From an uncultured delta proteobacterium (GTDB lineage Bacteria > Desulfobacterota > Desulfovibrionia > Desulfovibrionales > Desulfovibrionaceae), in contig CAILNX010000054.1 in NCBI GenBank assembly GCA_903835685.1, positions 1 to 64,000 on the forward strand: a stretch of DNA of 64,000 nucleotides. Reading direction: 5' to 3'. The position numbers and the translations under genes were made by a program. The notes beneath the pieces are model-generated. The model did no database searches. It was not told the DNA's origin and worked only from the letters and a program-made list of their open reading frames with translations. Positions 17,807 through 25,647 of this stretch are shown piece by piece (the first letter of the stretch is position 1; every line of letters starts with the position of its first letter).

Positions 17807-18050
17807 GACCAAGGCAACGGAAGCCGGAAAGGCCGCCCCTCCTCTTGGAGGCAGCGTCACAGACACGAAGAAAAGATTGTTCTTCCCGTCGCGGCTTCCG
17901 GAAGAGCTGTTGTTCAGACAACAATATAACAAGCAGATATTTTTAATAAATTATTCCTAGTCTTCAATCTTGCGGGGCCATTTTTCCTGGATGAAGTTGT
18001 CGCGCCGATCCTCCTTTGCCCATCAACCCCCAACCCGAGAGCCGACCACC

Positions 18051-18488
18051 ATGCTTCGTGATCGCATCGCCCCCTGCGGCCTGGACTGCGGCAAATGCCT
18101 GGCCTTTGCCGGGAGCGAGATCCAGGTCCACGCCCGGGCCTTGGCCGACCTCCTGGGTCCGAATTTCAGCGCCTACGCCGAGCGTTTCACGGCCATGAAC
18201 CCGGTGTTTACGGGCTATCCGGCCTTCCGGGACCTCCTGGACTTCCTGGGCCAGGGAACCTGCCAGGGCTGCCGGGGCTCGGGCTGTCTGCTGCAAGGCT
18301 GCGTGGTGCACGCCTGCGTGCAGGAAAAAGGCCTGGATTTTTGCTTTCAGTGCGGCCAGTTTCCCTGCGAGAGCACGGGCTTTCCCGAGCGGCTCAAGGC
18401 CATCTGGCGGCGCAACAACGAGCGCCTGGCCGACATCGGGCTCGAAGCCTACGCCGCATTCATCAAGGACAAGCCCAGGTATCCATGA
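18051..18488 (+). CDS. DUF3795-like cysteine-rich protein
   Basis: The 145-residue protein starts with APCGLDCGKCLAF and has later cysteines in GTCQGCRGSGCLLQGCVVHA and FCFQCGQFPC, twelve in all, in the spacing of DUF3795 proteins. Such proteins may bind zinc or an iron-sulfur cluster; no function is established that I know of. The ATG at 18051 fits the family start; the ribosome binding site is weak. Its stop overlaps the start of the ATPase gene in an ATGA, so the two are translationally coupled. It is the first gene of the split Rad50/Mre11-like operon and may or may not belong to that function. Confidence 0.75.
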   Translation: MLRDRIAPCGLDCGKCLAFAGSEIQVHARALADLLGPNFSAYAERFTAMNPVFTGYPAFRDLLDFLGQGTCQGCRGSGCLLQGCVVHACVQEKGLDFCFQCGQFPCESTGFPERLKAIWRRNNERLADIGLEAYAAFIKDKPRYP

Positions 18489-19822
18489 TCGTCCGGCTCA
18501 CGCTCACGGATTTTCTGGCCCATGGCCACAGCGTCATCGAGTTCGGACCCGGACTGACCGTGCTCACCGGGCCGAACAACACCGGCAAGTCTGCCGTGGT
18601 CGAGGCCCTGCGCTGCCTGTGCCAGAACCCCACGCCCAAGCATTTCATCCGCCACGGGGCCAAGGAGGCCCGGGTGGAGGCCGAGATGTCCGACGGGACC
18701 CGGGTGCTCTGGATCAGGACCAAGACCCACGCCCGCTACGAGCTCACCCGGCCGGGCCAGGAGCCCGAGACCTACGCCAAGTTCGGCCGCAAGCCCCCGT
18801 CCGACGTGCTGGACGTGCTCCGCCTGGACCCGGTGGAGCTGGAGACCGATGAGCCCATCGACGTGCACATCGGCAATCAGCGCGACCCCATCTTTCTCCT
18901 GAACCGCTCGGGCTTCACCACCGCCTCGTTCCTGGCCTCGTCCACGGAGAGCGCCCACCTTCTGTCCATGCAGCGCCTGCTCAAGGACCGTATCCAGGCC
19001 GCCAAACGCGAGGAGCAGGGCCTGTCCGGCCGTCTGTCCGTTCTCGAGACCGACCTGGACCGCCTGGCCCCTCTGCCGGACCTAGGCCTGGCCCTGGACC
19101 GCGCCCGGGAGGCCGAGGCCGGGGTCCTGGCCCTGGATGGAGCCATCCCGGCCCTGGACCGGGACCTGGGGCGGCTCTCCCGCCTGGGCTCGGCCCTGGC
19201 CGCCCTGGGGCTTCGGCAGGAGGCCTGCCGGACCCTGTCCCCCGCGCCCCGAACCGAGGACTGCCGCCCCCTGGCCCGGACCCTGAAAACCTTGGCCGGG
19301 CTCAGGGATCAGGCCGCGACCCTGTCCGTCCGCCTGGCCCGCCTGGCCGCGACCCCACCCCCGGCGGCCTGGCCCACGGCCCTTTTGGGGGATTGTCTGG
19401 CCCGGGTATCCCGCCTTTCCCGGCTCCTGGACCGGACAGAGGCCCGGGGCCAGGCCCTGGCCGGTCTGCGGCCCCTGCCCCAGGTCCAGGACACCACGGC
19501 CCTGGCCACCCTGGTGCGCGCCTTGGGCCAGGTGCGCATCCGCCTGGCTGCCCCGGCTGCCCGGCTCAAGATTCTGGCGCCCCTGGCCGGACCCCAGGCC
19601 CCGGTCGAGATCGGGCCTCTGGCCCGGCTCCTGGCCCGGCTGCGGGACCTGCGCGGCCAGGCCTTCAGCCTGGAAGCCGATTTGGACCAAAAGGCCCGGA
19701 CCCTGGCCCAGGCCGAGGCCCGCATGACCGCCCGGCTGGCCGAACTGGGCCGTTGCCCCTTGTGCGGGAGCGGCCTGGACGCCCGGACCTTCTTCACCCG
19801 AGGGGCCGACCATGACCATTGA
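18485..19822 (+). CDS. N-terminal half of a Rad50/SbcC-like ATPase, ending at a zinc-hook motif
   Basis: The 445-residue protein opens like an SMC/Rad50 ATPase: LTLTDFLAHGHSVIEFGPGL, then Walker A GPNNTGKS at 29-36. A beta-rich lobe runs to about 140, and residues 160-420 form a long Leu/Ala/Arg-rich helical region consistent with coiled coil. It ends with CPLC at 424-427, the CxxC of a Rad50-type zinc hook, 18 residues before the stop. There is no ABC signature, Walker B or H-loop. Those appear in a separate gene at 21099. The stop overlaps the nuclease gene by 11 bp. I infer that this is one half of an ATPase assembled from two chains. Confidence 0.85.
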   Translation: MIVRLTLTDFLAHGHSVIEFGPGLTVLTGPNNTGKSAVVEALRCLCQNPTPKHFIRHGAKEARVEAEMSDGTRVLWIRTKTHARYELTRPGQEPETYAKFGRKPPSDVLDVLRLDPVELETDEPIDVHIGNQRDPIFLLNRSGFTTASFLASSTESAHLLSMQRLLKDRIQAAKREEQGLSGRLSVLETDLDRLAPLPDLGLALDRAREAEAGVLALDGAIPALDRDLGRLSRLGSALAALGLRQEACRTLSPAPRTEDCRPLARTLKTLAGLRDQAATLSVRLARLAATPPPAAWPTALLGDCLARVSRLSRLLDRTEARGQALAGLRPLPQVQDTTALATLVRALGQVRIRLAAPAARLKILAPLAGPQAPVEIGPLARLLARLRDLRGQAFSLEADLDQKARTLAQAEARMTARLAELGRCPLCGSGLDARTFFTRGADHDH

Positions 19823-20780
19823 GCGCGAACTGCCCGTGGTCCGGGCCGAAGGGCTTTTCTTCATCGGCGACCCGCACATCTCGGCCGTGCCGCCTGGCCA
19901 GCGCCTGGAGGGCTTCCAGGACCAGGTCCTGGCCAAGATCCGGGCCTGCCTGGACCGGGCCGTGGAACTGGACATGGTCCCGGTGTTCCTGGGCGACCTG
20001 TTCCACTGGCCCCGGGAGAACCCCAACCAGTTGCTCGTGGAGCTCATCAGGCTGTTCGGGCCGCACAAGCCCTTTGTTTTGGTGGGCAACCACGACAAGC
20101 ACCAGGCCCGGCTCACGGCCGACGTGTCCCTGGCCGTGCTGGACGCGGCCGGGGTGGTCCGGGTCCTGGCTGACCCGGGTCCGGCCTTTGTCCTGGACGC
20201 AGGCGGGGTGCGCACCCTGGTGGGGGCCTCGCCCGACGGCTCGCCTCTGCCCTCGCGTTTTCCCCGGGAACCGGGCGGCCCCCGGTACGTTCTGTGGCTC
20301 TCCCACCACGGCCTCGCCTTTCCAGAATTCCTGGACCGGGCCCACCGCATCCGGGAGATTCCGGGCGTGGATTTCGTGGTCAACGGGCACATCCACCGGC
20401 CCCAGGCCACGGTCCAGGCCGGGGGCACCACCTGGACCAACCCGGGCAACATCACCCGCCTGACCTTCACCCGGCGCTCCCAGACCCGGGTTCCGGCGGC
20501 GGCCATCTGGACCCCGGGTTGCACGGACCTGGAGAAATGGCCGGTGCCCCACCTGCCTTTCGTCCAGGTGTTCCCGGACCAGGATTTCCCGCCCGAGGAG
20601 GAAGAGGCCCGGGGCCAGTCCCTGTTCATCCAGGGCCTGGAGCGCCTGGCCTGGCGGCGCACCCGGGAAGGGGTGGGCCTCAAGCAGTTTTTGTCCGTCA
20701 ATCTCAACCCGGAGAGGCCCGAGACCGGCCTGATCTGGGAATTGTACGAGGAGGTCACCGGCGATGCCCCATCCAAATGA
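19812..20780 (+). CDS. SbcD/Mre11-like metallophosphoesterase
   Basis: The 322-residue protein has all five calcineurin-type phosphoesterase motifs: GDPH (19-22), GDLF (61-64), GNHDK (92-96), SHHG (164-167) and GHIH (192-195). These bind two metals, usually Mn, in DNA exonucleases/endonucleases such as Mre11 and SbcD. A C-terminal part of about 90 residues could form the capping/ATPase-binding region. The gene lies between the two halves of a Rad50-like ATPase and overlaps its neighbours by 11 and 17 bp, which strongly supports a nuclease-ATPase complex. A phosphatase of another substrate is possible on motifs alone. Confidence 0.88.
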   Translation: MTIERELPVVRAEGLFFIGDPHISAVPPGQRLEGFQDQVLAKIRACLDRAVELDMVPVFLGDLFHWPRENPNQLLVELIRLFGPHKPFVLVGNHDKHQARLTADVSLAVLDAAGVVRVLADPGPAFVLDAGGVRTLVGASPDGSPLPSRFPREPGGPRYVLWLSHHGLAFPEFLDRAHRIREIPGVDFVVNGHIHRPQATVQAGGTTWTNPGNITRLTFTRRSQTRVPAAAIWTPGCTDLEKWPVPHLPFVQVFPDQDFPPEEEEARGQSLFIQGLERLAWRRTREGVGLKQFLSVNLNPERPETGLIWELYEEVTGDAPSK

Positions 20781-21102
20781 CCCGGCCAATGTCCGACCCG
20801 GGGGTCCGGCCGATCCTGACGCCGAACTCGAACGCGAACTGGCCGCCCTGCGCGCCGAGTACGAGACCTTGAAGGACGAGAAGGTCCGCACCGAGCAGAA
20901 CCTGGCCAACATCCGCCAGCAGCTCGGCGAACTGGAGACCCGGGCCACGGCCGACTACGGCACGGCCGAGGTGGGGCGGCTGACCGCCCTGCTGGAGGAG
21001 AAGCGCCGGGAGAACGCCCGGCTGGTGGAAGAGTACCGCGCCCACATCCTCTCCATCCAGAAGGGCCTGGCCGATCTGGACAGGCAGGACCAGGGCCAAT
21101 GA
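20764..21102 (+). CDS. small coiled-coil protein of the split ATPase operon
   Basis: The 112-residue protein has a Pro-rich start and then an almost unbroken heptad-rich helix (ELERELAALRAEYETLKDEK, ANIRQQLGELETRA, RLTALLEEKRRENARLVEEY). It has no cysteine and no enzymatic motif. It overlaps the nuclease gene by 17 bp and the next gene by ATGA. In a normal Rad50/SbcC the returning strand of the coiled coil follows the hook. This protein could supply that strand as a separate chain, or act as a structural adaptor. This role is inferred from gene order only; I know of no named family. Confidence 0.75.
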   Translation: MPHPNDPANVRPGGPADPDAELERELAALRAEYETLKDEKVRTEQNLANIRQQLGELETRATADYGTAEVGRLTALLEEKRRENARLVEEYRAHILSIQKGLADLDRQDQGQ

Positions 21103-21785
21103 ACGGGCTTGAGCCACAGGCTGACCAGGCCCCGGGGGCTGGCCGCCTTGAACCGAGCAGCTTGCGGGATTTGGAGCGGGCCTACGACCGTCTCCAGGCC
21201 CGGGCCGAGGAGGCGGTGCGCGAGCACGGGATGTCCCGGACGCGGCTTGCCTCGGTGCGCGCCTTCCTGGACCTGGCCCCCGGGGCCGCCTCCACCCTGG
21301 AGGAACTGTCCCAGGCCCTGTTCGGCGAGGCCCTGGACGAGATCGAGACCAATCTGACCCACGCCATCCGCGAGATCCTGGGCCAGGACCGGGAGGTGCG
21401 CTCCCTGCGCGAGGTCAAGAACAACCGGCTGCACGTGCAGTTCCAGATCATGAACCAGGGCCAGGCCGAGGATGTACTGGTGGGCCAGGGCGGGAGCGTG
21501 TGCAACATCCTGTCCGTGTCGCTTCGGCTCATCGCCCTGTCCCGCCTGGACCAGGCCCGGCACCGGCCCTTCCTGGTCCTGGACGAGCAGGACTGCTGGC
21601 TCAAGCCCGCGCTGGTGCCGAAATTCATGAAGATCATCGCCGAGATCGCCTCCCGGCTGTCCATCCAGGCCCTGGTCATCAGCCACCATCCCCTGGACCT
21701 GTTCCAGGGACAGGCCACCACCATTTACCGCCTGCGACCGAGCAAGGAGACCGGGGTGGTTCTGGAGCGGGCTTCGGGAATGTAA
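21099..21785 (+). CDS. C-terminal half of a Rad50/SbcC-like ATPase
   Basis: The 228-residue protein starts with helical, coiled-coil-like sequence (about 20-50) and then has the C-lobe of an ABC-type ATPase. The signature region is VGQGGSVCNILSVSL (about 128-142). Walker B is FLVLDEQD (158-165) with the catalytic glutamate, and the H-loop is ISHHP (194-198). It lacks Walker A entirely. It is therefore the complement of the protein at 18485-19822. The signature departs from the LSGGE/Q form but keeps the glycine pair and serine. It is the last gene of the operon; a 99-bp gap precedes the next gene. Confidence 0.85.
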   Translation: MNGLEPQADQAPGAGRLEPSSLRDLERAYDRLQARAEEAVREHGMSRTRLASVRAFLDLAPGAASTLEELSQALFGEALDEIETNLTHAIREILGQDREVRSLREVKNNRLHVQFQIMNQGQAEDVLVGQGGSVCNILSVSLRLIALSRLDQARHRPFLVLDEQDCWLKPALVPKFMKIIAEIASRLSIQALVISHHPLDLFQGQATTIYRLRPSKETGVVLERASGM

Positions 21786-24307: not shown

Positions 24308-24748
24308 CTATCCCTCGATCTCGATGCGCCGGGCGCAGAACTTCTGGTCCTTGGGGATGCGCACCGAGAGTACCCCGTTCTTGTATTCGGCCTGGACCTT
24401 GGTCTCCAGGCAGGTCGTGGGCAGGCGGATGGCCCGGGAAAAGGAGCCGTAGCTGCGTTCCACCCGGTGGAACCCCTCGCCCTTGTGCTCCTCCTCCCGC
24501 TTTTTTTCTCCCTTGATGACCAGCACGCCCTGATCCAGGGTCAACTGGATGTCGTTCACGTCCATGCCCGGGAGTTCGGCCGCCACCCGGACCTCGGTTT
24601 CGGTTTCGCTCACATCCACCACCGGGGCCACCCCCGAGGTATAGGGGGACATGGCGTTCTGCCAGAACTGGTCCATGCCCATCCATGGGTCCCTGCGCCC
24701 CTGGGCCTCGTCCTTGGGTTTTGAGGCCGGAAAGTGCTTCTTGAACAT
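24308..24748 (-). CDS. Hsp20 small heat-shock protein (third in operon)
   Basis: The 146-residue protein has an alpha-crystallin domain (about 42-140): VVDVSETETEVRVAAELPG, LVIKGEKKREEE, and the conserved YKNGVLSVRIPK. Such proteins form oligomers that hold unfolding proteins until ATP-dependent chaperones act. The start ATG at 24748 has GGGGGG before it. It is the last of three adjacent Hsp20 genes that share only moderate similarity, so they are old duplicates rather than recent copies. Confidence 0.95.
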   Translation of the reverse strand: MFKKHFPASKPKDEAQGRRDPWMGMDQFWQNAMSPYTSGVAPVVDVSETETEVRVAAELPGMDVNDIQLTLDQGVLVIKGEKKREEEHKGEGFHRVERSYGSFSRAIRLPTTCLETKVQAEYKNGVLSVRIPKDQKFCARRIEIEG

Positions 24749-24815
24749 GGTATCACCCCCCGACTGCGCAGAATGGCTGGGCATTCTGGCTGCGCAGGCC
24801 AGCTCTGCAGACCGG

Positions 24816-25184
24816 TCAACCGGCCTGGATTTCAATCCTCCGGGGCTTGGCCTCTTCGGCCTTGGGCAGGAACAGGTCCAAAACTCCGTTCTTGAGCACG
24901 GCCCGGATGCGGCCCCGGTCCACCACCGAGGAAAGGGTCAGGGTCCGGGCGTACTGGCAGGAGCAGAACTCGCTGTGGGTGAAGCGCACGTCCCCTCTGG
25001 GTTTTTGCGCGCTCGTGGCCCGGATGGAGATTTCCTCGTCGTTCAAATCAATGACCAGATCGTTCTTGTCCACCCCGGGCAGGTCCATGAAGATGTGGAA
25101 TCCGTCTTCCTTCTCCAGGATGTCCGTGGCCGGGATCACCTGCGGGAGCTGCCGCTCCTCGGTCTGGGTGCGTTCGTTGTCCAT
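24816..25184 (-). CDS. Hsp20 small heat-shock protein (second in operon)
   Basis: The 122-residue protein is an alpha-crystallin domain with short tails: PATDILEKEDGFHIFMDLPG, INLNDE-like strand, and LKNGVLDLFLPK. It has a CSCQ pair in the middle that the two neighbours lack, possibly redox-sensitive. The ATG at 25184 has GGGAGGA upstream. It lies 13 bp after the first Hsp20 gene and 67 bp before the third. Confidence 0.95.
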   Translation of the reverse strand: MDNERTQTEERQLPQVIPATDILEKEDGFHIFMDLPGVDKNDLVIDLNDEEISIRATSAQKPRGDVRFTHSEFCSCQYARTLTLSSVVDRGRIRAVLKNGVLDLFLPKAEEAKPRRIEIQAG

Positions 25185-25197
25185 GATGGGTCCTCCC

Positions 25198-25611
25198 TTA
25201 CGCGGATTCAATGCTGATGCTCTTGGGCGTGACGACCTCGGCCTTGGGCAGGGACACTTCCAGCACCCCGTGGACCAGGCGGGCCTTGACCCCTTCCCGG
25301 TCAATGGGCAGGTTCAGGTTGATGATGCGCTGGAAGAACCCGCCCGGGCGTTCCTGCCGGTAATAGCTCCCCTTTTCCATCTTGCGCTCGCCCTTTAAGG
25401 TCAGGGTCTTTTCCGTCAGGCTGAGCTCGATCTCGCTCATCTCCACGCCGGGAAGGCTCACGTCCACATAGATATGTCCCTCATCCTCACTGATATTCAG
25501 TGGAGGATAGGTGCCCCGTCTCTGGCTGATGGCCAGCGGTCTGGAAAACTCATCGAACAGACGCTGGAATCCGCCGGGCAAATCATAGAAGGTACTGAAA
25601 TCAATAACCAT
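25198..25611 (-). CDS. Hsp20 small heat-shock protein (first in operon)
   Basis: The 137-residue protein has the classic arrangement: N-terminal FSTFYDLPGGFQRLFDEFSR, an alpha-crystallin domain with PLNISEDEGHIYVDVSLPG, and LVHGVLEVSLPK, then a short C-terminal tail. The ATG at 25611 has GGAGGTGG upstream with eight-base spacing. A promoter with 17-bp spacing lies just before it, so this gene leads the three-gene Hsp20 operon. Confidence 0.96.
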   Translation of the reverse strand: MVIDFSTFYDLPGGFQRLFDEFSRPLAISQRRGTYPPLNISEDEGHIYVDVSLPGVEMSEIELSLTEKTLTLKGERKMEKGSYYRQERPGGFFQRIINLNLPIDREGVKARLVHGVLEVSLPKAEVVTPKSISIESA

Positions 25612-25647
25612 GGTTGGCCACCTCCGTTCAAATTTCACCTATCGGAA

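Follow-up and report, generated by a model that had tools for sequence, protein, structure and literature searches.

Can the head of a Rad50-type ATPase be divided between two genes, with its nuclease partner encoded between them, and if so, what would such a gene set do? Rad50/SbcC is a single chain that folds back on itself at an apex bearing the zinc hook, Mre11-Rad50 occurs in every domain of life, and current models of how ATP at the head is coupled to tethering and to the nuclease build on this fold-back chain. The locus that raises the question lies in 64,000 nucleotides of DNA from an uncultured member of the Desulfovibrionaceae, and this whole stretch is called the window here.

Two half-ATPase genes flank a phosphoesterase gene

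The module spans 18485-21785 on the plus strand of the window and consists of four genes in the order N-PE-cc-C, whose ends overlap by 11 bp (N/PE), 17 bp (PE/cc), and 4 bp (cc/C). The original prediction for this DNA had placed a phosphoesterase and a fourth protein between two half-ATPases with these same overlaps, and its coordinates are exact. The genes and their motifs are as follows.

18485-19822, plus strand: N, N-lobe half-ATPase of 445 aa, with Walker A, a helical arm, and a terminal CPLC half-hook
18569-18592, plus strand: Walker A GPNNTGKS, N residues 29-36
19754-19765, plus strand: CPLC hook motif, N residues 424-427 of 445, with the stop 18 residues on
19812-20780, plus strand: PE, Mre11/SbcD-like calcineurin-type phosphoesterase of 322 aa, with all five metal motifs
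20764-21102, plus strand: cc, small helical protein of 112 aa, in which two helical stretches flank a YGT-x-D turn that is conserved in the alignment
21099-21785, plus strand: C, C-lobe half-ATPase of 228 aa, with signature, Walker B, and H-loop and no Walker A
21483-21497, plus strand: ABC signature-like GQGGS, C residues 129-133
21570-21587, plus strand: Walker B FLVLDE, C residues 158-163
21681-21689, plus strand: H-loop SHH, C residues 195-197

Immediately upstream of N is a gene for a DUF3795 protein (17970-18488), whose place next to the module is conserved in six or more other genera. Further along the window, three tandem minus-strand genes at 24308-25638 look by eye like small heat-shock (Hsp20-like) genes.

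In the window, N has no Walker B and C has no Walker A. This is the division that had been predicted, with Walker A and a CPLC 18 residues from the end in one protein and the signature, Walker B, and H-loop in the other. A Rad50/SbcC protein is one chain in which the N-lobe comes first and an antiparallel coiled coil, turning at the hook, leads to the C-lobe, and this is not what the window genes encode. The partition of motifs was followed in a genome scan of one genome per species, in which a single pattern gave 173 relatives; 80 loci were kept, and profiles of the four proteins were run over them. All 42 N proteins carry Walker A and end 15-39 residues after a CxxC, a Walker-B-like hhhhDE is found in 59/59 C proteins, and neither Walker A nor CxxC occurs in any of those 59, so that a separate C half with a Walker A of its own, which would speak against a divided head, is absent from the scan. 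The full motif set, CxxC included, lies in one chain in all 21 fused proteins described below, and a stray hhhhDE string occurs in two N proteins. The partition of motifs between N and C is far beyond chance. Both cysteines of CPLC are invariant in two N alignments, and, judging from the families concerned, the CPxC at the end of the arm of N is a putative zinc hook. GQGGS is an unusual signature motif, and we counted it against the explanation that we favor.

The four-gene order recurs, and a permuted fusion joins the halves

The gene-order survey proposed with the original prediction finds that the four-gene set recurs. Complete split loci have the order N-PE-cc-C in 42 of 42 cases and fused loci the order cc-[C~N]-PE in 21 of 21, and the remaining kept loci have C alone or are cut by contig ends. 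Assemblies with the split order, many of them MAGs, come from Desulfovibrionaceae, Syntrophobacteraceae, Desulfobacca, Planctomycetota, Verrucomicrobiota, Poribacteria, Sumerlaeota, and Bacillota, and C is present in 15 genera of Desulfovibrionaceae, the window's own genus included. A frameshift or sequencing error that split a single frame, foreseen with the prediction as what could undo it, is ruled out by 42 independent loci that keep the split in the same order. A related explanation is that a canonical SbcC was broken by frameshift or genome reduction and that the halves are its relics, as might be supposed from each half having only part of the motif set. However, the four-gene order is kept with intact motifs in these 42 loci across phyla, PE and cc stand between the halves, and another clade has the permuted fusion, and we regard this explanation as barely credible.

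The fused C~N is found in Alpha- and Gammaproteobacteria, on megaplasmids of Alteromonas, Pseudomonas, Vibrio, Aeromonas, Bosea, Methylorubrum, and Rhizobium, and also in Microvirga, Sabulicella, Roseococcus, and Arenibaculum. It usually has a recognizable cc ahead of it and PE behind it (PE is divergent on the gammaproteobacterial plasmids), and cc is therefore placed either between PE and C or ahead of the fused C~N. If N-PE-cc-C and cc-C-N-PE are each read as a circle they are identical, and thus the fused order is a cyclic permutation of the split order. The fused rows form one clade (99/90), a single change on the tree. Phage rows fall outside this clade under midpoint rooting, and the root is unsure because the phage branches are long.

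These phage rows come from queries with N and with C that were run independently and that match the same four phages: Microbacterium phage Magritte, an uncultured 485 kb phage, Bacillus phage vB_BboS-125, and Microcystis phage Mvi-JY20. The order in Mvi-JY20 is N-PE-cc-C as in the window, with a weak match for cc (E 0.0013), and in vB_BboS-125 N is followed by an AP2-domain gene, a small gene, and then C and PE; N ends near a CxxC in both. The AP2-domain gene just after N in vB_BboS-125 (L152:9410-9982) is possibly of the homing type. The C profile matched nothing in a scan of viral contigs, the N alignment has no stretch conserved enough for a scan, and the module is rare among sequenced phages.

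Among N, C, and PE, pairwise distances are correlated with r 0.91-0.95, a value as high being reached in 0 of 500 permutations, and the mirror-tree r between N and C is 0.946. The fused C~N is a natural Rosetta-stone link between the halves. Because the halves are fused in 21 loci of the scan and on megaplasmids, are co-inherited, and are found in the same four phages by independent queries, we conclude that they belong together. Where C stands apart from N, N was located elsewhere in the genome in five of the six genomes searched. N was not found anywhere in one 98% complete genome (G005; C at L041/L129), which reflects either an assembly gap or a lone C. In a further genome (G338), a minus-strand ORF of 259 aa (L146, 1429-2208) contains fragments of N and, after them, fragments of C, which is the canonical order, with internal parts missing, and this frame is a decayed copy or a mini-fusion.

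The phosphoesterase resembles Mre11/SbcD and the lobes resemble Rad50

The five motifs of PE (DxH, GD, GNHD, HH, and GHIH) are invariant or nearly so in 17 homologues, PE matches Pfam Metallophos, and its profile has Mre11 and SbcD as top PDB matches (E 4.5e-6 to 1.1e-5), which agrees with the Mre11/SbcD-like identity first proposed for it. PE is thus an Mre11/SbcD-like protein and, from its family, a predicted nuclease. The SbcD model TIGR00619 has no match in the window's genome, PE included, at E<=0.001.

N matches Pfam AAA_23 above the cut-off, and its N-terminus resembles Rad50/RecN/SMC. Its match to Pfam Rad50_zn_hook is below the cut-off only, its matches to the NCBIfam Rad50/SbcC models are weak and far under cut-off, and its match to the recN model reaches 35 bits over 68 residues where the cut-off is 408. 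Run against the PDB, the N profile leads to Rad50. The AlphaFold model of the window's C (pLDDT 88) aligns with the C-terminal chain of P. furiosus Rad50, 1f2u_B, with Z 12.9 and an rmsd of 2.9 over 142/145 residues, and the next structural matches are other Rad50 and SMC C-lobes. The fused protein of Microvirga (L084), modeled with 48 rows, has a mean pLDDT of 85 and a pTM of only 0.62, and P. furiosus Rad50 chains are the best Foldseek matches to this model. In VIA-align, its N-lobe (214-357) aligns with 1f2u_C with Z 10.3 at 3.0 A over 132/148 residues; SMC heads tie with it, and some unrelated long-helix proteins reach similar scores. Structural alignment proceeds in chain order and so matches the permuted protein to a Rad50 chain one lobe at a time, and absence from a list of structural matches does not exclude a family. 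That the halves are Rad50/SMC-type lobes, as predicted, is thus backed by the profile search and by fold. The heads in 1F2T/1F2U consist of two chains, and a divided head is therefore structurally sound.

With the N and C profiles, SMC and RecN are matched to about the same degree as Rad50, and Foldseek too places SMC heads among its top matches. These results would be expected if the module were a split RecN/SMC-like ATPase with an accessory phosphoesterase that acts in chromosome organization and not in end processing. However, the conserved partner is Mre11/SbcD-like, CPxC is present, the module has no kleisin, Rad50 is the best structural match of C, and RecN is encoded separately, elsewhere in the window's own genome. 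We consider a RecN/SMC-like complex unlikely. Rad50 and SMC heads have similar folds, and the case for Rad50 therefore depends mainly on the nuclease partner and the hook motif.

SbcD is avoided in Desulfovibrionaceae with the module

Within the Desulfovibrionaceae, SbcD (TIGR00619, E<=1e-7) is found in 0/15 genomes with the module versus 16/20 without it (Fisher 1.9e-6), where the 1e-7 cut-off was set after the matches had been seen and the Fisher tests here ignore shared ancestry. At E<=1e-3 the counts for the same family are 2/15, both weak matches, versus 16/20 (Fisher 1.3e-4), and in the Desulfobacterota sample at E<=1e-7 they are 0/15 versus 157/281 (Fisher 7.8e-6). Outside Desulfobacterota the avoidance is leaky, as 8 of 47 module genomes have an SbcD match at E<=1e-7. 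Of four SbcD-like genes in module-free genomes, three adjoin undivided AAA_27 ATPases of 1171-1434 aa and one is an SbcD-SbcC fusion. This fusion, of 1635 aa with a mid-chain CPLC and like the Mimivirus-type fusions, is encoded at L162:5937-10844 in a module-free relative (G025).

The genes for MurJ, a methyltransferase, and DUF3795 precede the locus in several genera of the family, and this synteny is the mark of a resident gene set. Because the module has a syntenic position on the chromosome and avoids SbcD, we read it as the cell's equivalent of Mre11-Rad50 and not as a defence system, and within Desulfobacterota gene content suggests that it most likely replaces canonical Mre11-Rad50. The original prediction had left the choice between end processing and defence. 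An anti-phage system built with borrowed Rad50-like and phosphoesterase parts, as in Lamassu, Gabija, and Septu, would be in keeping with the phage and megaplasmid copies, and the PADLOC models LmuB, GajA, and PtuA do match the N-terminal 45-70 residues of N. However, these matches cover only the generic P-loop region, PE has none, and across the module proteins there is no full-length match to a PADLOC model, only partial stretches that are mostly of the P-loop region. The synteny extends across several genera, and there is no obvious reason why a defence system should avoid SbcD. On these grounds the defence half of the prediction is unsupported and improbable, and DNA-end processing is the function that we favor.

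The arm of N varies in length and is often a repeat

The helical stretch predicted in N is indeed helical, but it is rich in Pro and Leu and unlike a plain coiled coil. N arms contain a 39-residue tandem repeat: three proteins show autocorrelation peaks at 39 and 78, the median spacing is 39, and the repeat is weak in the window's own N. Tandem 39-residue repeats with a Pro-Pro linker, in species-dependent number, are seen in L077:2565-4604 (N, 680 aa), L059, and L128. Measured between residue 165 and the hook, the arm has 210-493 residues across N proteins, whereas C (206-267) and cc (92-120) are nearly constant in length and do not track the arm. A one-to-one coiled coil of the full-length arm with C or cc is thus unlikely, and a two-stranded coiled coil between the halves over the whole arm is not supported. 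The C model has one continuous 76-residue helix before the lobe, which is likely a coil-B stub.

A possibility that we entertain tentatively, while leaning somewhat against it, is that phages and bacteria share a distinct branch with a separate-subunit head and a single-chain repeat-rod arm with a half-hook, in which the divided state is older than the permuted fusion. Instead of a two-stranded coiled coil, the arm would then be a rod built from 39-residue helix-linker repeats that grows longer as repeats are added, and the cc hairpin protein might sheathe the rod.

A probable bipartite Mre11-Rad50-type complex

The module is quite probably best explained as a bipartite Mre11-Rad50-type complex, and assembly of the halves in trans is strongly implied. 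In the mechanism that we propose for this complex, N and C would fold separately and then associate into one ABC/Rad50 head. The predicted composite ATP site would take Walker A from the N-lobe and Walker B and the H-loop from the C-lobe, the C-lobe would offer its signature motif to a partner head, and two heads would clamp ATP and DNA as a putative ATPase. The phosphoesterase would act as the nuclease, under the control of the ATP cycle, and DNA ends would be processed in the manner of SbcCD/Mre11-Rad50. With the chain cut at the hook, N would run along the arm to CPxC, and this terminal CPxC could pair with another arm via zinc. C would retain a coil-B helix of ~75 residues beside the head, and cc probably braces the arm or this helix.

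A widespread natural form divided at the hook, together with one with permuted lobes, would show what chain continuity is not needed for, and head assembly becomes directly testable by mixing subunits. For lineages that apparently have no SbcCD, many Desulfovibrionaceae included, the module is a likely end-processing complex, and annotators gain profiles for genes that are now called "hypothetical protein" or "AAA family ATPase."

Comparison with known systems

The original prediction knew of no described system with this split, and in the open-access literature we likewise met no account of a Rad50 that is divided or permuted. The nearest published rearrangement in that literature is the family of Mre11/Rad50 fusion proteins (Mimivirus R555 and others), in which the nuclease is fused to Rad50 and which occur in plasmids and viruses (PMC3175470); the word "split" is absent from that paper. 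Both the fusions and the module are rearranged layouts found in plasmids and viruses, but the Rad50 of the module is divided, and permuted in one clade. In the parts of a 2005 survey of bacterial recombination genes considered here, SbcC and SbcD are ordinary single genes (PMC1193525).

In the YhaO/YhaN-like pair (SbcD-like exonuclease plus AAA_27 ATPase), which occurs in relatives without the module, a phosphoesterase also adjoins a Rad50-like ATPase, but this ATPase is a single chain of 1171-1434 aa, with no CPxC in the three examined. The two-chain P. furiosus Rad50 catalytic domain of 1F2T/1F2U, which we take to be an engineered construct, is like the module a head of separate N-lobe and C-lobe chains, and the division in the module is natural. 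With Rad50/SbcC and Mre11/SbcD the module shares both ABC lobes, a CxxC as a putative hook motif, a five-motif phosphoesterase, and adjacent genes. Unlike Rad50/SbcC, it has two ATPase genes, which enclose those for the nuclease and a fourth protein, its chain ends at the hook, its arm consists of 39-residue repeats in variable number, and in the proteobacterial fused form the lobes stand in C-then-N order.
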